From a virus, in IMG/VR virus record IMGVR_UViG_3300021976_000027, positions 1 through 48,129 of that record: 48,129 nucleotides of DNA. One strand, given 5' to 3'. The first letter of the stretch is position 1. Every line of letters starts with the position of its first letter. Both the position numbers and the translations under genes were made by a program. The notes beneath the pieces are model-generated. The model was not told where the DNA came from and did not search any database. It was given only the letters and a program-made list of their open reading frames with translations. This document shows, piece by piece, positions 194 to 33,460 of the stretch.

Positions 194-1697
194 TAGCTGG
201 CCCCGGACGTTCATTTGCTTTTGCCGGATCATTCTCGTTAGCGTTCGCCGGATCGGCGTCATCCTCGCCATCAAGCGGTGGCAACGTCGCGCGCATGTCG
301 TCGATTTCTTTCCGGGCGAGTTCGTCGGCTAGCGTAGCGATGCCGCCACGGCGCAAATTCGCGCGCAACTCGGACCAAGAAATCGCTTCGCCTTGCCACT
401 CTTGAATGAGCGCGGTTCGTTCGTTCGACGACAGTTTGATCAAATCGAATTGCGTATTGAGTTCGAATTCGATCAACTGCTTTTTCGTCCCATCTTCGCC
501 TTCCGCGCCTTCCTCGAATTTTTCACCTTCGAACCTTGCGACATGACGCAACGATCGCGTGAACGCGTCAGATACGTTATCAGCCGACGACGACAATGTT
601 GATGTCTCGTACGACTGATCAATTGACGCCTCCGTCGCCGTGCGCTGTACGGCCGTAGGATCGACAAGCTTCGCCCCCAGCGCGACCATTTGACCTTCCT
701 TATGCTTCATAGCCTCCATTGGGAGGGTATTCGGCGCAATCTGCACAAGGCCCGCCGCCGCCCCGGCGGGCAGCGGGATCGCAGCCCATGAGCCAAGTTG
801 AATTTTGCCCTTGAGCACTGACTTGACCCATTGTTCCGTCAAACCGCTAAACCATACGGTCGGCTGACCCATGACATAGCAAGCTTCCTCATAGTCCGCT
901 GAATTTCGATAATGTGCGATATTCATCGTTGCAAGATCGTATAGCGGCGGCTGATCCGGGTCCGGGTCGTTATTCTCAGCGCCGACGAATTCAAATGGAA
1001 TTTCCTCAAACGCGTTCCCTTTCGCGTCAGTCGGCGTCAACGTTTCAACGGGACGATCGCCGTCCGTATCGCGATACAATAATTGCGTGTATACGCCATC
1101 GATAAGGCGCAAGACGCGATATTGTTTCCCGTACGTGATCAGAAATCCGTCGTCACTTTTGACGTACTTTTCTTGAATGACGACAAGCGATTTAACCTTG
1201 CGACCTTTGACGTTATCCCAACGCCAATTAATGATATCTTTCGGATCGTAAACCGTCAGGTTCGCCCGATACAATTCCTTTTCGGCCGCGCTGATTTGGC
1301 CTGACGTTGTGGGGAAGTCCGTCAGAATTCCCGTACGGCCGAACCCGATTGTAAATCCCGAACAATACTTGGCAAGCTGCGTCAACGATACGCCAAGACC
1401 GGTAGCATCTTCCGTCAGCTTCGCCATACCATCGGGGAGCACAATAACAGGTTCACGAGAAAACACTTGGCCGACAAGTCCGCCCAAGGTTCGCTTGACG
1501 ACGTTGTAAAACACGGCCCGCGTCAAATACGCATCGTAGCGCGCGCGGTTCTCGTTTGACATGTCGCCCGCGTTTGGTCGCGGCAAATATCGATCACGAC
1601 GATATTTGACTTGAAATTCTCCTAGGATCGTATCGCGGATTACGTCCCATTGCGCGTTAAGATTACGCATGCTTTCGTGTAGAGTTGAGACTGGCAT
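180..1697 (-). CDS. Portal protein (DUF4055 type)
   Basis: The 505-aa product matches the DUF4055 phage portal family in length and pattern: an N-terminal segment around RDTILGEFQVK followed by YLPRP, then NVVKRTLGGLVGQVF, and a helical C-terminal half containing AVQRTATEASIDQ. It should form the dodecameric ring at the capsid vertex through which DNA is packaged and ejected. The acidic, Ala/Asn-rich last 40 residues look disordered. It sits directly after the large terminase (9-nt gap) and overlaps the start of the MuF-like gene, the usual TerS-TerL-portal-MuF order. Family assignment is from recalled sequence pattern, not a search. Confidence 0.88.
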   Translation of the reverse strand: MPVSTLHESMRNLNAQWDVIRDTILGEFQVKYRRDRYLPRPNAGDMSNENRARYDAYLTRAVFYNVVKRTLGGLVGQVFSREPVIVLPDGMAKLTEDATGLGVSLTQLAKYCSGFTIGFGRTGILTDFPTTSGQISAAEKELYRANLTVYDPKDIINWRWDNVKGRKVKSLVVIQEKYVKSDDGFLITYGKQYRVLRLIDGVYTQLLYRDTDGDRPVETLTPTDAKGNAFEEIPFEFVGAENNDPDPDQPPLYDLATMNIAHYRNSADYEEACYVMGQPTVWFSGLTEQWVKSVLKGKIQLGSWAAIPLPAGAAAGLVQIAPNTLPMEAMKHKEGQMVALGAKLVDPTAVQRTATEASIDQSYETSTLSSSADNVSDAFTRSLRHVARFEGEKFEEGAEGEDGTKKQLIEFELNTQFDLIKLSSNERTALIQEWQGEAISWSELRANLRRGGIATLADELARKEIDDMRATLPPLDGEDDADPANANENDPAKANERPGPANART

Positions 1698-24221: not shown

Positions 24222-24491
24222 ATGCTGGATATCTCGGACGGTTGTATTTGGAATGGATCAAAGCCGGTCGCGCGTCTTGACCCCAAATTACTTCCGTCCG
24301 AGATTGACGCTATCAACGCGACTTTGAACCCCGTTTACGAGCCTGACGAAGCAACGTTCGAATATCAAGAGGTTAAAGAAATCCTAGGAAAGCTTCGAAT
24401 TCGCGCCGTTGCATTGGCGAAAGCCGGTAACGTTACTGTTGCCGAACTTTCCGATTTAATTGAAGAATTAATTGATGAGGAAATCGAATGA
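24222..24491 (+). CDS. Hypothetical acidic protein, 89 aa
   Basis: Begins MLDISDGCIWNGSKPVARLD; the C-terminal half is an acidic helix (AELSDLIEELIDEEIE). Coupled to the Sak4-like gene by an ATGA overlap, so a partner role for it is plausible. Function unknown. Confidence 0.65.
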   Translation: MLDISDGCIWNGSKPVARLDPKLLPSEIDAINATLNPVYEPDEATFEYQEVKEILGKLRIRAVALAKAGNVTVAELSDLIEELIDEEIE

Positions 24492-25183
24492 CTGTTTACC
24501 TACGTTCAACGTCGGATATCGCAATCAACGGCGTCAAGTGCCTTGTCTATGGCCCGCCGAAAGTCGGCAAGACGCGCCTAATCGCAACAGCGCCAGCCCC
24601 TGTTATTCTTTCGGCCGAAGGCGGCTTGTTGTCACTGCGCCAATACAATTTGCCGTATATCGAAATCAAGACAATGCTTGATCTATCGGAGGCGTACCGA
24701 TGGTACACGCAAGCACAAGAGGCAAAACAGTTCTACACGATCGGGCTAGATAGCATTTCCGAAATCATCGAAGTGCTTCTAGAGCATGAGAAAGCACGGA
24801 CGCGTGATCCGCGCAAAGCGTACGGCGAAATCATAACGCAAGGCTTACGGATTGTGCGCGACTTCCGCGACATACCGGGCCGTAACGTCGTCATGACGGC
24901 GAAGATGGAATACAGTAAGGACGAAGCGAACGGAATGATGCTGTTTCAGCCTTCATTTCCAGGTTCGAAACTCGGCCCGGCTGTACCGTACTTTCCCGAC
25001 GAAATATTTCAGTATTGCGTGTTCACAAATCCCCAAACCGGACAACGCGGCGAATTCCTGCGTTGTTGGGCCGATCAACAAAACATCGCTGGCGACCGTA
25101 GCGGCGCTTTGGATCAATGGGAGTTACCGAACTTGTCGAACGTATTCGCCAAGATCGCAAGCGGTCATATAGCAAAACGATGA
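24488..25183 (+). CDS. Sak4-like RecA-type ATPase, single-strand annealing/recombination
   Basis: 231 aa. Residues 22-29 are GPPKVGKT (Walker A), YTIGLDSISE near 84-93 is the Walker B region, and LRIVRDFRDIPGRNVVMTAK follows as in the AAA_24 (PF13479) phage nucleotide-binding proteins that include Sak4. These enzymes act in phage homologous recombination with an SSB-like partner, encoded two genes downstream. Coupled on both sides by ATGA overlaps. Confidence 0.85.
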   Translation: MTVYLRSTSDIAINGVKCLVYGPPKVGKTRLIATAPAPVILSAEGGLLSLRQYNLPYIEIKTMLDLSEAYRWYTQAQEAKQFYTIGLDSISEIIEVLLEHEKARTRDPRKAYGEIITQGLRIVRDFRDIPGRNVVMTAKMEYSKDEANGMMLFQPSFPGSKLGPAVPYFPDEIFQYCVFTNPQTGQRGEFLRCWADQQNIAGDRSGALDQWELPNLSNVFAKIASGHIAKR

Positions 25184-25397: not shown

Positions 25398-26333
25398 ATG
25401 TTTAGTTTCGACGCCCGAACAGTCGCACCGCAAACGGCAATGGAGCCTGTACCGCTCGGCTGGTATAAGTGCATCATCGTCAAGTCGAATATCAAGCCAA
25501 CCAAGAACGACACAAGCCAAGCGTTTCTTGAATTGGTATTGAAGATCATCGAAGGCCAATTCGCGGATCGTCAAGTTTACATCAACCTGAATATCTTCAA
25601 CCAATCACAACAGGCTGTTGAAATTGCGTACAAGCAATTGAGCGCAATCTGTCACGTGATCGGACAATACAATGTTCAAGCGCAACAAAACGCGCCGGAC
25701 ATGACAACGCCGATGCTGCACAACATTCCATTCATGGCGTATATCGTCGTCGGAACCGGCACGAACGGCCCGAACAACAACGTCAAGGGCTTCAAGGATA
25801 TCGCTGGCAACGATCCCGGCAAGCAAGGTCAGGCGCAGACGATCCCCGGCGGCGCACCGCAAGGCTTTGGAGCGCAGCCGCAACCGGGGCAGGCGCAGCC
25901 GGGCGGTACATGGGCGGGGCCGCAAGGCGGTATGGCACCGGGCGGCAATATGCCCTATGGCGGCGCTGCCCCACAGCAGCAGGGCGGCGGGTGGCCCGGT
26001 GGCGGACCACAGCCCCAACAGCAGCCGAACCCGCAACCGCAGTATCAACAGCCGAACCCAGCGCCACAAGGCAACGGCGGTTGGTCAACCGGACCGGCGC
26101 AACCCCAGGCAACGCCGAACTATCAACCGCCGCCGCCGAACCAACAGCCTCAACAGCCGCAACAGTTCGCGCAACCACAACCGCAACAGGCGCAACCGCA
26201 GCAGCCGCAGTACCAGCAGGCGGCACCGCAAGGCCAACCGCAGTACCAGCAGCCACAACCGGGGCAATTCCAGCCGCAACAGGGACCGGGGCCGCAAGGC
26301 GGTCCGGCCGGTGCCGCACCTTGGTCGCGCTAA
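25398..26333 (+). CDS. DUF669 ssDNA-binding-like protein with 165-aa Q/P/G-rich tail
   Basis: 311 aa. Residues 1-135 match DUF669 (PF05037): a beta-barrel of SSB type beginning MFSFDARTVAP, with PLGWYKCIIVKSNIKPT and QAFLELVLKIIEGQFADRQV. Residues from about 145 onward are almost only Gln, Pro, Gly, Ala and Asn, with NGGWSTGPAQ inside, and the protein ends AAPWSR. DUF669 proteins accompany Sak4-like ATPases and polymerases and are thought to coat ssDNA. The long tail resembles the disordered linkers of bacterial SSB, but the acidic tip expected at its end is missing. Confidence 0.82.
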   Translation: MFSFDARTVAPQTAMEPVPLGWYKCIIVKSNIKPTKNDTSQAFLELVLKIIEGQFADRQVYINLNIFNQSQQAVEIAYKQLSAICHVIGQYNVQAQQNAPDMTTPMLHNIPFMAYIVVGTGTNGPNNNVKGFKDIAGNDPGKQGQAQTIPGGAPQGFGAQPQPGQAQPGGTWAGPQGGMAPGGNMPYGGAAPQQQGGGWPGGGPQPQQQPNPQPQYQQPNPAPQGNGGWSTGPAQPQATPNYQPPPPNQQPQQPQQFAQPQPQQAQPQQPQYQQAAPQGQPQYQQPQPGQFQPQQGPGPQGGPAGAAPWSR

Positions 26334-26433: not shown

Positions 26434-27288
26434 GTGACGTATCAGCCGCATTTACTCGTAACGATCGCAAACCGCATCAGCGATGATATCGACGCATTCT
26501 CGATTAAACAGTACCAAGATCAACACCGTTCGCACTTAGGCGCGAGTGTGATCGGCCATGATTGCTGGCGCTATTCATGGTACGCGTTCCGTTGGATCAA
26601 AAGCGAAATATTCTCCGGTCGAATGCTGCGCCTGTTTCAACGCGGACACGACGAAGAAAGCAAATGCATCGCGAACTTACGCGGGATCGGGTTTGAAGTT
26701 TGGAACGCGCAAGTCGGCGGCGACCAATTCCGTATTGTGGGGGCCAAAGGTCATTACGGCGGATCAACGGATAGTGTCGCGGGTAGTCCTTACAAGGATT
26801 TTCCCGAGAAACTGATTTGCGAATTCAAGACGCATAATTCTAAGTCACTAACGAACTTACACCATAAGAAACTTATGGTGTCTAAGCCACGACATTACGC
26901 GCAAATGTGCAACTATGGAAAAGCGTTCGGGATCAAATACGGGCTGTACTATGCCGTCGGTAAGAACGACGACGATATTTATATTGAAGTCGTCGAACTT
27001 GATTGGACGCTCGCCGACGACTTGTACAAGAAAGCGGAAGACATTATTTTCTCACCACATCCGCCGCCAAAGCTCGCAATGCAAGCGGACTATTACGAAT
27101 GTAAAATATGCCCGTTCAAAGGGCCATGCCATCACAATACGGATATCGATCGTAATTGCCGTAGCTGTATTCACGCGCATCCAATCGAGGAAGCGCAATG
27201 GGGATGCGACGAACACAAAGTTATCATCCCAAAAGAATTTCTGCCGCAAGGCTGCGATCGTTGGCAACCAATTGTCAATCGAGGCTAA
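26434..27288 (+). CDS. Cas4/RecB-like PD-(D/E)XK exonuclease
   Basis: 284 aa, GTG start with AGGGGG upstream. HDCWRYSWYAFRW holds Cys44; GSTDSV (109-114) gives the catalytic aspartate; ICEFKTH (about 128-134) the E-x-K; QMCNYGKAFG the downstream motif. YECKICPFKGPC (222-233) and Cys44 together give the four cysteines expected for the iron-sulphur cluster of Cas4 and AddB-type nucleases. It is likely a 5'-3' end-resecting exonuclease that supplies ssDNA to the annealing proteins encoded upstream. A second cysteine group CRSCIH follows. Confidence 0.85.
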   Translation: MTYQPHLLVTIANRISDDIDAFSIKQYQDQHRSHLGASVIGHDCWRYSWYAFRWIKSEIFSGRMLRLFQRGHDEESKCIANLRGIGFEVWNAQVGGDQFRIVGAKGHYGGSTDSVAGSPYKDFPEKLICEFKTHNSKSLTNLHHKKLMVSKPRHYAQMCNYGKAFGIKYGLYYAVGKNDDDIYIEVVELDWTLADDLYKKAEDIIFSPHPPPKLAMQADYYECKICPFKGPCHHNTDIDRNCRSCIHAHPIEEAQWGCDEHKVIIPKEFLPQGCDRWQPIVNRG

Positions 27289-27461: not shown

Positions 27462-29057
27462 ATGATCTTCGAACGACGCTGGTATCAAACCGAAGCTGTC
27501 GATAGTATCTTTCGGTACTTCGAACAGAAAGACGGCAATCCGGTTGTGGCTATGCCTACCGGCACCGGAAAGAGTGTCGTCATAGCTCTATTCCTACAAA
27601 TCATTTATCAGTATTGGGCGCATCAACGCGTCATGATGCTGACACATGTTAAAGAGTTGATTGGACAGAACGCGGCCAAACTACTTGATGCATGGCCAAC
27701 CGCGCCCCTTGGTATCTATTCGGCAGGGCTACGCCAACGCGCTACGATGAACCCGATCATATTTGGCGGCGTCAAGTCCGTTGTCAATTGCGTAGAGGCG
27801 TTCGGTTGGGTGGATTTGTTGATCATTGACGAATGCCACTTGATCAACCCAAGTGCGAGTAGCGACTATCAGAAAATCATTGCGAAGCTTAAAGAAATCA
27901 ATCCAAAGCTCAAAGTCATAGGTTTGACGGCGACGTGGTATCGGTTAGGTCAAGGGCTGTTGACGCAAGGCAACATCTTTACGGATATCTGCTACAACAT
28001 TTGCGATACGATTGGTTTCAATCGATTGATATCCGAAGGCTATCTTTCGCCTCCGATACCGAAAACGACAAAGACGTTACTCGACGTTTCGAAAGTTAGC
28101 ATAGGCAGCAATGGCGACTTTACTCAATCGCAGCTACAGGCGGCTGTTGACAAGCAAGACGTAAATTTCAGCGCTGTTTCCGAAATGGTTGAACGCGGAC
28201 AAGATCGCCATTCGTGGCTTACATTCTGTTCGGGTATCGAACACGCCGAACATATCGCCGAATTGTTGAATAACTATTTTGGGATACCGACTGTCGCCGT
28301 TCATTCCAACATGTCAACGGGAGAACGCGACGCAGCAATCAAAGGGTTCAAGAACGGCGACTATCGCGCGTTGACTTGCAACAACATTTTCACGACTGGC
28401 CAAGATCATCCGCCAATCGACTTGATAGGAATGCTACGCCCCACAACCTCGACGGGGCTATGGGTTCAAATGGTTGGACGTGGTACGCGACCGTCACCGG
28501 AAACCGGCAAACGCAATTGCATGATTTTGGACTACGCTCGTAACTGCCAACGGTTAGGCCCGATCGACGATCCGAACATACCGCGACCGAAAGGCGGCGG
28601 CGGGGGCGATGCGCCGGTCAAGATATGCGACTACTGCGGCGCGTTCAATCATGCGCGAGCGGCCTTTTGTATCGATTGCGGTCAACCATTCGTCTTTGAA
28701 CAGAAGCTAATCCGGCAAGCGGACACACGACAAATCCTATCAAGCGGAATGCCGCAAGTCGAACGATACGAAGTTAGCCGCGTCATGTACAACCGTCACG
28801 TAGCACGCAAGAGCGGAAAGACCAATATCAAAGTGTCGTATATGTGCGGCTTGCAAATGTTCCAAGAATATATCTCATTCGATCAAACCGGGTACGCATT
28901 GCACCGCGCCCATGAATGGTGGCGGCAACGCCATGAAAGTCCGCCGCCATTGTCAACTGATCTAGCCTTGCTCGGATTGTCGCAACTGCGAACGCCGAAA
29001 GCTATCAAGGTATGGGTCAATAAAAATCCACCGGAAATATTGTCCCATGAATACTAG
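27462..29057 (+). CDS. RadD-like superfamily 2 helicase
   Basis: 531 aa. Motif I is MPTGTGKS (about 30-37), motif II DECH (about 122-125), motif III LTAT, and motif VI QMVGRGTR (about 335-342). A zinc ribbon follows the helicase core, CDYCGAFNHARAAFCIDCG at about 389-407, the layout of E. coli RadD (YejH). RadD acts in recombination repair and binds the C-terminal tip of SSB. The next replication protein downstream, the clamp-like gene, ends in that very tip. The gene overlaps its downstream neighbour by 11 bases. Confidence 0.85.
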   Translation: MIFERRWYQTEAVDSIFRYFEQKDGNPVVAMPTGTGKSVVIALFLQIIYQYWAHQRVMMLTHVKELIGQNAAKLLDAWPTAPLGIYSAGLRQRATMNPIIFGGVKSVVNCVEAFGWVDLLIIDECHLINPSASSDYQKIIAKLKEINPKLKVIGLTATWYRLGQGLLTQGNIFTDICYNICDTIGFNRLISEGYLSPPIPKTTKTLLDVSKVSIGSNGDFTQSQLQAAVDKQDVNFSAVSEMVERGQDRHSWLTFCSGIEHAEHIAELLNNYFGIPTVAVHSNMSTGERDAAIKGFKNGDYRALTCNNIFTTGQDHPPIDLIGMLRPTTSTGLWVQMVGRGTRPSPETGKRNCMILDYARNCQRLGPIDDPNIPRPKGGGGGDAPVKICDYCGAFNHARAAFCIDCGQPFVFEQKLIRQADTRQILSSGMPQVERYEVSRVMYNRHVARKSGKTNIKVSYMCGLQMFQEYISFDQTGYALHRAHEWWRQRHESPPPLSTDLALLGLSQLRTPKAIKVWVNKNPPEILSHEY

Positions 29058-29538
29058 AGAACAATCACGTATCGGTCGAAAGATGATACGGCACCGTAAC
29101 GAAGTGCTACGATCATTGGATATCGTAGCATTCGATCGGTACTGCCGTAAATGGAAAGTGCCGATCCCGGCAGGCGGTTGGCTTCCGTTGGCTCGCGAAA
29201 TTCTCATGCACAAATCCCGTGTCGAATTTGATACATTTTCTGATGATGAAAAGGAATTCAGCCGACGTTGGCTAATCGAACACGGATTTAGTGATCAACT
29301 CGGAACGTTGCACATGACATTTGCGCCGGGCGAATGGTGGAAAATACCGCTCGCACTTCGCAAGCGGTATTGGCTCGAAACCGACTACGGTAAGAACCCG
29401 CCAACGATCGAACTAGCCGAACTAATCTGGATCGCGCTAGGAAAGATGACGCTATGCGAGGATTGCGGAAAGAACCCAGCCGATCCGCCGTCGAAACTTT
29501 GCCCAGGCTGTCGCGCGTACAAGGAACATACCACATGA
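29047..29538 (+). CDS. Hypothetical protein with C-terminal zinc knuckle pair
   Basis: 163 aa. Helical, charged N-terminal 130 residues; the C-terminus has LCEDCGKNPADPPSKLCPGC, a compact zinc ribbon. Coupled to the helicase upstream by overlap and to the next gene by ATGA. A helicase or polymerase accessory role is inference. Confidence 0.65.
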   Translation: MNTREQSRIGRKMIRHRNEVLRSLDIVAFDRYCRKWKVPIPAGGWLPLAREILMHKSRVEFDTFSDDEKEFSRRWLIEHGFSDQLGTLHMTFAPGEWWKIPLALRKRYWLETDYGKNPPTIELAELIWIALGKMTLCEDCGKNPADPPSKLCPGCRAYKEHTT

Positions 29539-30093: not shown

Positions 30094-31200
30094 ATGGCAA
30101 AGAAACCACGGGGAAAAGCCAAGACCGATCCGACCAAGAACCCAGCAACGGCGTCACTACTCGCCGCGCTCAAATTCATTGAACCGGCGTCGCGCGAGGA
30201 AGGCCAAATTAATCAAATCCACTGCGCGCTTACCGGTGGTTGGGCCGCGTCGTTCGATGGTACGCTTTGCATGGCCGCAAAGATCGATACGGATATCGTA
30301 TGCTATCCGAACACGAAACGACTAATCAGCGTTTTGTCTAAGTGCAAAGATACGACGCAGATAACGCAACTCGATAACGAACGATTGCACGTCAAGTCAG
30401 GACGGTTTGACGCGTACGTTCCATGTATCGATCCCGCGTTGTTTTCCATTACCCCGCCCGATCCGCCAGCGTTCCCAATCGACAAAAAGCTAATCGACGC
30501 GTGTAACATTGTGGGGAAACTTGTCGCTGAAAATGCCGAACGCATGGTTGAAGCCTGCGTGTTGGTTCGCAATGGTTCATGCGTCGCAACCAATGGCGTA
30601 ATCCTGTTCGAGCAATGGCACGGCTGGCAATTGCCGTTCCGCGCCGTAGTCCCGAAACTGTTCATATCGCAATTAGGTAAGATCGCGAAGCTTCCGACGC
30701 ATTGCGGTGCAAGCGAAACAACATTCACAATTTGGTTCGAAGATGGATCGTTTATTCGAACACAACAGTACGTCGAAAAATACCCGGATACAGACGGACA
30801 GATATGGGACAACGTACGCGCCCAACCGTACGACATTCCGGCAGGTTTCTTTGACGCTATCGATGCAATCGAGGCGCTAGCGGACGACAAAAATCCGCGC
30901 GTATACACGATAGACAAAGGGATTAGAACCCATGACGGCGAAGGCGTTGGCGCGTTCTACGAAATCGAAGGTATACCGCCCGATCTATGCTTTGATATCG
31001 ACTATGTTAAAATGTTTGCCCCACACGCGAGCAAGGTCGATTTCGTCGCATCGGTGCCGAACGGTAATACGCTTGCGTTCTTCGGCGAAAGCTTTCGGGG
31101 ATTGCTTATGCATATCCGATGTACGCCGCAGAAAGTTGAACGTGAACCACTCGCCGTAGGTACAAGCCGATCGGACATGGACGACGACATTCCTTTTTAA
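30094..31200 (+). CDS. Sliding-clamp-like protein with SSB-type C-terminal tip
   Basis: 368 aa, the length of bacterial beta clamps (about 366). Three roughly equal blocks show the clamp pattern: block 1 around CALTGGWAASFDGTLCMAAK, block 2 with ATNGVILFEQW, FRAVVPKLFISQLGKIAKLP and TIWFEDGSFIRTQQY, block 3 around IPAGFFDAIDAIEAL and GNTLAFFGESFRG. It would tether the family A polymerase encoded two genes later. The last residues are DMDDDIPF, identical to the tip of E. coli SSB (DDDIPF), which recruits repair proteins. The clamp call is by length, pattern and context; the tail is seen directly. Confidence 0.75.
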   Translation: MAKKPRGKAKTDPTKNPATASLLAALKFIEPASREEGQINQIHCALTGGWAASFDGTLCMAAKIDTDIVCYPNTKRLISVLSKCKDTTQITQLDNERLHVKSGRFDAYVPCIDPALFSITPPDPPAFPIDKKLIDACNIVGKLVAENAERMVEACVLVRNGSCVATNGVILFEQWHGWQLPFRAVVPKLFISQLGKIAKLPTHCGASETTFTIWFEDGSFIRTQQYVEKYPDTDGQIWDNVRAQPYDIPAGFFDAIDAIEALADDKNPRVYTIDKGIRTHDGEGVGAFYEIEGIPPDLCFDIDYVKMFAPHASKVDFVASVPNGNTLAFFGESFRGLLMHIRCTPQKVEREPLAVGTSRSDMDDDIPF

Positions 31201-31214
31201 TGGAGGTTGAAACT

Positions 31215-31457
31215 ATGGCAACGAAACGCGAAGTATTACTAGCAGCAGCCAAGGGCGAAGGTTGCCTAGGGAAAGCCGCCGACGACGAACCCGTATTCGT
31301 CTTACGCGCGCAAGATATTCTAGCGCCCATGGCTATTCGCGATTGGGCGTATCGAGCCGCGACGCGTACCGGACACCGTGCGCCGAAAGTCGTACAAGCG
31401 GAAAAAGACGCGTTAGAATTTATCGCGTGGCAAGGTTCGAAGAAACTCCCCGACTAA
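31215..31457 (+). CDS. Hypothetical protein, 80 aa
   Basis: ATG at 31215 has GGAGG 9 bases upstream; an ATG at 31200 overlaps the clamp stop and has no site. The product is helical and mildly basic (RDWAYRAATRTGHRAPKVVQ). It lies between the clamp-like gene and the polymerase and shares one base with the polymerase start. Function unknown. Confidence 0.7.
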   Translation: MATKREVLLAAAKGEGCLGKAADDEPVFVLRAQDILAPMAIRDWAYRAATRTGHRAPKVVQAEKDALEFIAWQGSKKLPD

Positions 31458-33460
31458 TGTTCTTCGACGACATAGACCTAGGCCCGTTGAAGAAACGAGC
31501 TTTGTTGAAAGTGCCGCCGCCAGCCCCTAACACGGGCTGGCGTCCGCCGTCCGACTTCCCGAACCTATCGAACGCAACCGTCATTGGATTTGATACCGAA
31601 GGCAAAGAAGACGATTGGGACCATGGCCCCGGTTGGGCACGCGGCAAATCTGATCTAGTCGGCTATTCGCTCGCCGCTAAGGATCGTCAAGGCAATACCG
31701 GCAAATGGTATTTCCCGTTCGGACACCGCGTCGGAACGGAAGATAACTTAGACCGCAACCATTGCCTTGCGTTCTTAAAACATACTCTTGAAACAACGAC
31801 GAATGTTCCGAAAGTCGGAGCTAACTTGCTGTTCGACGTTGGCATGCTTACCGACTATGACATAAAAGTTAAGGGCAAGCTGTTCGACGTTCAATTCGCC
31901 GAAGCTCTATTGAACAGCGATGGATTAGTCAACCTTGACCATTTGGGCGAGCAATATCTAAAGCAAGGTAAAACGACGAATGCCCTATACGAATGGTGCG
32001 CGTCGGCTTACGGCGGACCGCCAACGGGCGTTCAACGTAACAACATTTGGCGAACGCCTCCGCAGTTAGTCGGACCGTACGGCGAAGATGACGCTTTTCT
32101 ACCGATCGAGATTTACGAGAAACAATCGCCGTTATTACATGCGCAATATCTCAGCGACTTGTTTGAAATGGAATGCGGATTGATCCCGTTGCTTGTGCAA
32201 ATGCGGATCGAAGGCGTAACAGTCGATTTGAAACAAGCGCAAGCATTACACGACGAACTTACGATCGAGATAGCGCGGCTGTACGTTGAACTTTACAACT
32301 TAGTCCCGATCCGAATTGAGAGTGTCAACAGCGGCGACGATATCGCCCGTCTATTCGATGCGTCGGGTATAACGTACCCAACAACGGCGCAAGGCAATCC
32401 ATCATTCCGCAAAGACTGGCTAAAGAATTTAGAGCACCCAGTCGCGGACAAAATAAACGAGATACGCGAGTATGAAAAAATTCAATCGACATTTATTAGG
32501 AACTACATTCTTGAAGGTAACACGAACGGAAAGATACATTGCCAATTCCATCCTCTACGTAATGACGACGGAGGCGCTCGTACAGGACGGTTTGCAAGCT
32601 CTGATCCAAACTTACAGAACATTCCAGTACGAACTAAGCTCGGCAAGCGTGTTAGACGCTGCTTTACGTATGACCATGGACACATTGCATGGGAAAAGAA
32701 CGATTATTCTCAAATTGAATACCGCGACCTAGCACACTTTGCTTGTGACGACGGCGACGGTTCGGCCGATCGATTGCGCGAAGCTTATCGCCTTGATCCC
32801 AAAACGGACTATCACAAGCAAACTCAAAACAACGTTCTAAATCTAACCGGGATCGAGATTGATCGACGGCCGATCAAGAACATGAATTTCGGACTTGTAT
32901 ACGGCATGTCGGAAGGAAAGCTAATCCGACAAAACGGATTTACTCAATCGCAAGGGAAAGCGGTATTCAAAGCGTATCACGAAGGAAACCCGTACGTCCG
33001 CCCCACAATGAAAGCGGCGGCCGATGAAATGCAAAAGCTTGGATATATCACGACGGTTCTAGGACGGCGAACCCGGTTCAACTATTGGGAACCGCTCTTT
33101 CGTGACTACGACAAGCCGCGCCCGCCAGCGTTGCCGTATGACTATGCGATACGTCGGTACGGATCATTGATCAAACGCGCCGACGAACACAAGGCAATCA
33201 ATTATCGCCTGCAAGGCAGCGCCGCAGAGCATATCAAAGCCGGGATGTATCGATGCTGGAAAGAGGGAATATTTGACGTTACAGGCGTCCCCAGGCTACA
33301 GATACACGACGAACTTGATTTTAGCGTCCGTGATGAAAATCCGGCGACTAACGAGGCGTTCGCCGAAATGCGTATCCGTCTTGAGACTGCGTGCCCGATC
33401 CGCGTTCCAGTTCGAGTTGACTTTGCGCGGGCGGCGTCATGGGGTGACATAGCTGATTAG
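31457..33460 (+). CDS. polA: Family A DNA polymerase with 3'-5' exonuclease domain
   Basis: 667 aa. Residues 1-250 are a DnaQ-like 3'-5' exonuclease with IGFDTEGKE (Asp46, Glu48) and GANLLFDVGML. The polymerase motifs are A: NDYSQIEYRDLAHF (about 413-426; Tyr replaces the usual Leu after the Glu), B: RRPIKNMNFGLVYGMS (about 470-485; the ribose-selecting position is Phe, as in E. coli Pol I), C: QIHDELDFSV (about 613). No 5'-3' exonuclease domain. It is the replicative phage polymerase. ATG at 31457 shares a base with the previous stop. Confidence 0.95.
   Translation: MFFDDIDLGPLKKRALLKVPPPAPNTGWRPPSDFPNLSNATVIGFDTEGKEDDWDHGPGWARGKSDLVGYSLAAKDRQGNTGKWYFPFGHRVGTEDNLDRNHCLAFLKHTLETTTNVPKVGANLLFDVGMLTDYDIKVKGKLFDVQFAEALLNSDGLVNLDHLGEQYLKQGKTTNALYEWCASAYGGPPTGVQRNNIWRTPPQLVGPYGEDDAFLPIEIYEKQSPLLHAQYLSDLFEMECGLIPLLVQMRIEGVTVDLKQAQALHDELTIEIARLYVELYNLVPIRIESVNSGDDIARLFDASGITYPTTAQGNPSFRKDWLKNLEHPVADKINEIREYEKIQSTFIRNYILEGNTNGKIHCQFHPLRNDDGGARTGRFASSDPNLQNIPVRTKLGKRVRRCFTYDHGHIAWEKNDYSQIEYRDLAHFACDDGDGSADRLREAYRLDPKTDYHKQTQNNVLNLTGIEIDRRPIKNMNFGLVYGMSEGKLIRQNGFTQSQGKAVFKAYHEGNPYVRPTMKAAADEMQKLGYITTVLGRRTRFNYWEPLFRDYDKPRPPALPYDYAIRRYGSLIKRADEHKAINYRLQGSAAEHIKAGMYRCWKEGIFDVTGVPRLQIHDELDFSVRDENPATNEAFAEMRIRLETACPIRVPVRVDFARAASWGDIAD

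Follow-up and report, generated by a model that had tools for sequence, protein, structure and literature searches.

An SSB-type C-terminal peptide on a phage sliding clamp and on alternative replication proteins of related phages

The window, the whole 48,129-nt stretch of viral DNA analysed here (positions 1 to 48,129 of IMG/VR record IMGVR_UViG_3300021976_000027), contains an operon in which a sliding-clamp gene is accompanied by genes for Sak4, a DUF669 SSB, a Cas4-like exonuclease, a ResIII helicase and a family A polymerase:

24488..25183, + strand: Sak4-like annealing ATPase (phrog_124, E 2.9e-41), a candidate phage-encoded reader of the tip
25398..26333, + strand: DUF669 SSB-like protein (PF05037, phrog_6015), ending APWSR, without acidic tip
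26434..27288, + strand: Cas4-like exonuclease (phrog_1990, E 8.9e-90), with a C-terminal Cys module like the miniprotein of relatives (hhalign 92%)
27462..29057, + strand: ResIII/RadD-like helicase (phrog_16), ending PPEILSHEY, without tip
29047..29538, + strand: ORF of 163 aa that overlaps the helicase stop and occupies the place of the tip-bearing miniprotein of relatives
30094..31200, + strand: sliding clamp of beta/DnaN type (PHROG 947), 368 aa, ATG start, the tip carrier
31120..31197, + strand: C-terminal tail past the clamp body, residues 343-368 (fall in pLDDT; tail-less relatives end at the equivalent of about residue 342)
31177..31200, + strand: SSB-type tip MDDDIPF and stop codon (from the sequence; conserved in several clamp lineages)
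31454..33460, + strand: family A DNA polymerase (PF00476, E 2.4e-66), starting MFFDD, directly downstream of the clamp

The C-terminus of the window clamp reads SRSDMDDDIPF and is followed directly by TAA; codons 31177-31197 are ATG GAC GAC GAC ATT CCT TTT (MDDDIPF), and the stop occupies 31198-31200. As in SSB tips, acidic residues and then I-P-F form the extreme C-terminus. Of the window's 560 ORFs of 30 aa or more, no other ends in an SSB-type tip, and matches to the tip rule outside the replication-module families were rare (3 of 17,999 ORFs in one set, 9 of 23,461 in another). Relatives vary synonymously in the tip codons for I, P and F. The tip rule demands P and, at the final position, an aromatic residue, so the invariance of these two positions is in part built in. 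Judged by these ORF counts and by the relatives described below, the clamp tip is neither a chance match nor unique to this phage.

The 368-aa protein matched PHROG 947 (DNA polymerase processivity factor) with an E-value of 1.4e-53, and a profile built from 17 clamp relatives matched bacterial DnaN in the PDB (E 5.6e-5). A Pfam search of the protein gave no match, the OB fold PF00436 included. Given 60 relatives, AlphaFold2 modelled the protein with a mean pLDDT of 92.4; on the clamp sequence alone, pLDDT was only 36.8. Foldseek comparison of the model returned bacterial beta clamps throughout as the best PDB matches (E. coli 4mjq_B, E 3.8e-18, TM 0.71, 369 columns), showing the fold of a beta clamp and not the OB-fold ssDNA-binding domain of SSB. 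The main helices of the model (residues 17-32, 74-82, 131-141, 188-196, 252-260 and 302-308) are consistent with three two-helix domains. By profile match and predicted structure, the window protein is a beta-type clamp, with the fold extending over its full length.

Model confidence fell from a pLDDT of 97 at residues 331-340 to 76, 64 and 58 in the final three blocks, and the tip is therefore probably carried on a disordered or flexible tail. Clamps without a tail end at the position equivalent to residue ~342 of the window clamp, and in tip-bearing clamps the tail after the conserved RG varies from 14 to 68 aa. About twenty clamp lineages bear the tip, among them those of Kakheti25 (NYEDDIPF), KL1 (DMDDDIPF), FtMidnight (DPDKDIPF) and RcMotherGoose (DPDDEIPF); the clamps of Pfeifenkraut, Halfdan, Pavpe01, R3, CAjan, NP1 and others end with the clamp body. 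A single-sequence search of viral contigs with the window clamp found no relatives, and the 17-clamp alignment held no stretch conserved enough for scanning, so a closer clamp alignment was used for the viral contigs. A relative of this clamp occurred in 296 phage records, and all host genera among the matches listed were Proteobacteria; a separate search found a relative in a Microcystis phage as well.

The initial annotation, made from the letters of the window, had described a 368-aa gene for a sliding-clamp-like protein ending in MDDDIPF-TAA. ORF 30094-31200 and codons 31177-31200 bear out this reading, and the proposed structure prediction, together with PHROG 947 and Foldseek, returned a beta-type clamp. 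It had also proposed that homologues be checked for the tip, which the four named clamps above do keep, and had stated that the phage's own DUF669 SSB-like protein lacks such a tip, which agrees with its APWSR end and with the lack of any canonical SSB in the genome.

Neither the window genome nor any of the 17 genomes searched contained a canonical SSB (PF00436), and no DnaX-family clamp loader was detected in the 17 genomes; controls were detected in both searches. Chi was likewise not found in the 17 phage genomes, and the Sak4 family was present in 17/17. Instead of an acidic tip, the DUF669 SSBs of the group share a conserved C-terminal P-x-W motif (PWGQR, PAWGQK, PPWAK; 75/85 loci), probably a short element with a docking or binding role of its own. 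Family A polymerases of the group carry a clamp-binding-like hydrophobic motif, which is C-terminal in some (SLFF, QLQFF, TLALF) and N-terminal in others, reading MFFDD in the window and GLFWED in Queuovirinae-like phages. Such ends on many related polymerases are suggestive of polymerase binding. No homology to the tip-bearing Cys-rich miniprotein of relatives was recognised in the 163-aa ORF at 29047-29538, which has zinc-like pairs (CEDCG..CPGC) and no tip at its C-terminus.

A scan of all ORFs in the loci showed that relatives with a tail-less clamp usually bear the tip on another protein of the module. The alternative carriers were a Cys-rich miniprotein encoded close to the helicase gene (63-87 aa in the named phages below), the ResIII helicase itself and, rarely, the DUF669 SSB, so that the tip follows unrelated protein bodies in different relatives. 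The miniprotein bears it in Pfeifenkraut (YENDIPF), Halfdan (DFDIPF) and R3 (VDEIPF), as well as in Eidolon, Me-ZS1, Iggy and Pavpe01; the helicase C-terminus bears it in NP1 (DLDDDIPF) and in CAjan and Seurat (DPDYVPF). At locus L344, the DUF669 SSB ends AETDDDIPF and the clamp and helicase have no tip; the SSB is therefore also a possible carrier in this group. In an unselected sample, viral ORFs ending DDDIPF were mostly SSB-like proteins, with six ResIII helicases included. The pattern survey also turned up a viral protein family of ~75 aa with IGEHPQF/IGEHPQH and a C-terminal DDDIPF (L103, L122, L130, L168).

The miniprotein belongs to phrog_23504, a family of 60-110 aa whose function is not known. 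By hhalign, its Cys module is similar to the one at the C-terminal end of the neighbouring Cas4-like exonuclease (probability 92%, E=6e-7), and the miniprotein looks like a free-standing version of the latter module (L005:7480-7710, L002:3873-4064, L006:7464-7694 and others). Tip-bearing members were the input to the miniprotein model, which nevertheless detected tip-less ones as well. L070 is a rare double carrier: its exonuclease has a C-terminal tip (FVLDSDIPF), and so does the miniprotein next to it.

How many tips a phage carries was counted in three ways. The first scan took in the complete or almost complete genomes of twelve phages and the window (429-653 ORFs per genome; NP1 and Iggy to base 57,000, 1.5-3.6 kb short of their ends). 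Exactly one tip-bearing gene was found in 12 of these 13 genomes, on the clamp in five, the miniprotein in six and the helicase in one (NP1, where one extra antisense ORF matching the rule was taken as spurious and discounted). Acinetobacter phage Ab_SZ3, alone among the complete genomes of the set, had no tip-bearing ORF; of the replication module genes looked for, all were present except the miniprotein. Eighty clamp-anchored viral contigs and the named phages were then grouped into 68 clamp groups at 80% identity, of which 29 had a clamp tip, 33 a miniprotein tip (two of these have both) and two a helicase tip. Among helicase-anchored contigs it was on the helicase in 46, the miniprotein in 40, the clamp in 15 and the SSB in one, with none or a cut end in 28 and two carriers in none.

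Dereplication of the combined set by helicase left 101 loci with complete helicase and clamp, many of them contig fragments. Exactly one carrier was found in 83, two in 2 and none in 16, the helicase being a carrier in 17. When carriers were shuffled independently (5000 times), a procedure that ignores shared ancestry, one carrier was expected in 47.8 loci (maximum 64) and two in 18.2 (minimum 10). Some of the 16 loci without a carrier hold weak or unassigned tips (an 88-aa ORF ending ELDDIPF in L230, NDCPF in L227, NEFPF in L254 and MVIPF in L265). A few genomes or loci, including Ab_SZ3, L044, L051, L222, L229 and L268, have no detectable tip and keep the other module genes, so that either the tip is not absolutely required or variants escape the rule. 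The presence of exactly one tip in most related phages, on differing proteins, suggests that the peptide itself is what the replication machinery needs.

A tree of 67 clamp rows, built after removal of the tail columns, contained five changes of clamp-tip state, all forced by well-supported branches, and a wider, quicker tree of 100 clamps needed seven, of which at least five were forced. Taken together, these clamp phylogenies call for a minimum of five gains or losses of the tip. The tip is inherited within a Septimatrevirus-like clade, and the window clamp lies outside this clade in both clamp trees, its exact neighbours differing between them. On the best helicase tree, the single-carrier state changed nine times. 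In L066, the L071 group, L078 and L311, the clamp has gained a tip and the miniprotein is kept but no longer ends in a proper one; a miniprotein that has stayed on without its tip is counted in three clamp-tip lineages. In L061 and L068, a clamp tip accompanies miniprotein ends without acidic residues (HCFLIPF and HVMKIPF).

These distributions bear on two further proposals of the initial annotation. The first was that the phage had moved the tip from SSB to its clamp. The conserved SSB-type tip on the clamp and the tip-less phage SSB speak for this, but a simple move does not fit the carriers, which are miniprotein, helicase, clamp and rarely SSB, or the clamp and helicase trees, which place the window among or near lineages whose carrier is the miniprotein or helicase. 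The proposed SSB-to-clamp transfer is a single instance within this wider pattern. The second was that the RadD-like helicase of the operon reads the tip. E. coli RadD is a ResIII-type helicase that binds the SSB C-terminal tip (SSB-Ct), and the phage helicase shows a family resemblance to it; unlike RadD, however, the phage helicases often bear the tip themselves. Because the helicase is a carrier in many phages (17/101 dereplicated loci), it is an unlikely reader and more likely an interchangeable carrier, and we set it aside as a reader.

The peptide is of a known kind. It resembles the bacterial SSB-Ct (E. coli MDFDDDIPF) in its position at the extreme C-terminus, its acidic residues followed by I-P-F and its flexible tail, but is found here on a clamp, and in relatives on a helicase or miniprotein, rather than on an OB-fold ssDNA-binding protein. 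The clamp is like DnaN and PHROG 947 in fold, body length and location beside the polymerase gene; it differs in having a 26-residue tail with an SSB tip, where most relatives stop at the end of the body, and in its setting, since no DnaX-family loader gene was found in the phage. The phrog_23504 miniprotein, encoded beside the helicase in relatives, bears the same tip, but is a Cys-rich protein without a clamp domain, and the window has none. The closest module with a demonstrated tip function is that of phage HK620, in which a DUF669 SSB next to Sak4 ends in the SSB-like NDYPPF and these last six residues are needed to stimulate Sak4 (PMC5928155). In HK620 the SSB itself bears the tip, whereas in the window a different protein of the module does so and the SSB has none.

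The clamp fold, the conserved tip, the low-confidence tail, the repeated gain on clamps and the near one-carrier rule are each directly supported by the data above. The reading that we favour, and consider probable, is that the clamp tail works as a copy of the SSB docking peptide and recruits an SSB-tail-binding protein to phage forks. The DNA of these phages would be coated by the DUF669 SSB; this protein usually has no peptide, and the module therefore appears to show one copy on another protein, the clamp here and, in relatives, the miniprotein, the helicase or, in rare cases, the SSB. At the phage fork, this tip would attract a protein whose pocket binds SSB tails, and the carrier would be interchangeable provided that it sits there. 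Most likely, the tip gives the phage replisome a hold on SSB-tail-binding proteins that its own SSB lacks. We infer that it binds SSB-tail readers, mainly host proteins; the candidates are host chi, other host SSB partners and the phage Sak4.

In a more specific version, the tip would attract the clamp loader of the host by way of chi, the loader subunit that reads SSB tails. PMC13213242 and PMC4199511 describe chi as linking SSB tails to the clamp loader. Chi is attractive as a reader because it couples SSB tails to the loader and because no DnaX-family loader was found in the 17 genomes. Its distribution is restricted (2 of 14 control genomes). Plasmid SSBs, used for matching phage tips to host SSB tips, gave mainly enterobacterial matches, and bacterial genomes yielded only two relatives. 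That a single SSB-type peptide, passing among clamp, helicase, miniprotein and SSB, captures the host loader via chi, so that the host machine places the phage clamp on DNA coated by a tip-less phage SSB, is put forward only tentatively.

The main rival to host readers is the phage's own Sak4-like annealing ATPase, which would bind the tip, so that the recombinase is drawn to the fork by it; the carrier would be free to change, all carriers being at the same replication and recombination complex. The occurrence of Sak4 in every one of the 17 genomes and the HK620 precedent (PMC5928155) favour this explanation. However, tip-less Ab_SZ3 still encodes Sak4, as do most tip-less loci, a peptide read by a co-evolving phage protein alone need not stay near the host SSB tip, and the P-x-W C-terminus of the DUF669 SSBs themselves could serve Sak4. 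On balance we regard a phage-encoded reader as rather unlikely.

It is improbable that the tip is a decoy or inhibitor that occupies host ExoI, RecQ, RecO and RecJ and so spares phage DNA from processing. The peptide is nearly identical to the host-type tip (E. coli tip as given in PMC5928155) and a small free miniprotein would suit such a role, but the carriers are core replication proteins of one operon, a helicase or clamp would be expected to titrate poorly, and a single copy is kept rather than several. We find it more doubtful still that the tip is a clamp-binding peptide, docking helicase, miniprotein or SSB on the clamp and acting in cis when on the clamp itself. All carriers could plausibly dock there, and in beta clamps the C-terminus adjoins the peptide-binding pocket. 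Yet the tip is unlike the clamp-binding consensus QLxLF, the phage polymerases here do have LF/LFF-type ends, and a cis copy would block the pocket. Coincidence, with tails drifting to similar ends or descending without function, is least credible of all and already contradicted: inheritance within the Septimatrevirus-like clade fits it, but the background of 3/17,999 ORFs, the repeated gains, the exclusivity and the synonymous codon variation do not, and it could be revived only through a sampling artefact.

In the literature searched, neither SSB tips on phage clamps nor their movement between proteins is described; the placement of this peptide and its near one-copy rule appear to be new. 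The SSB tail is a hub peptide of bacterial genome maintenance and is usually regarded as part of SSB. Its occurrence on clamps, swapped among unrelated replication proteins at about one per genome, presents it as a peptide separable from SSB, and the pattern suggests that selection acts on the presence of the peptide at the fork. The variety of carriers offers natural swaps, already at hand, for finding out which partner matters, and the tip may explain how phages with no recognisable clamp loader might engage that of the host. It also provides a first functional handle on the uncharacterised phage family phrog_23504.
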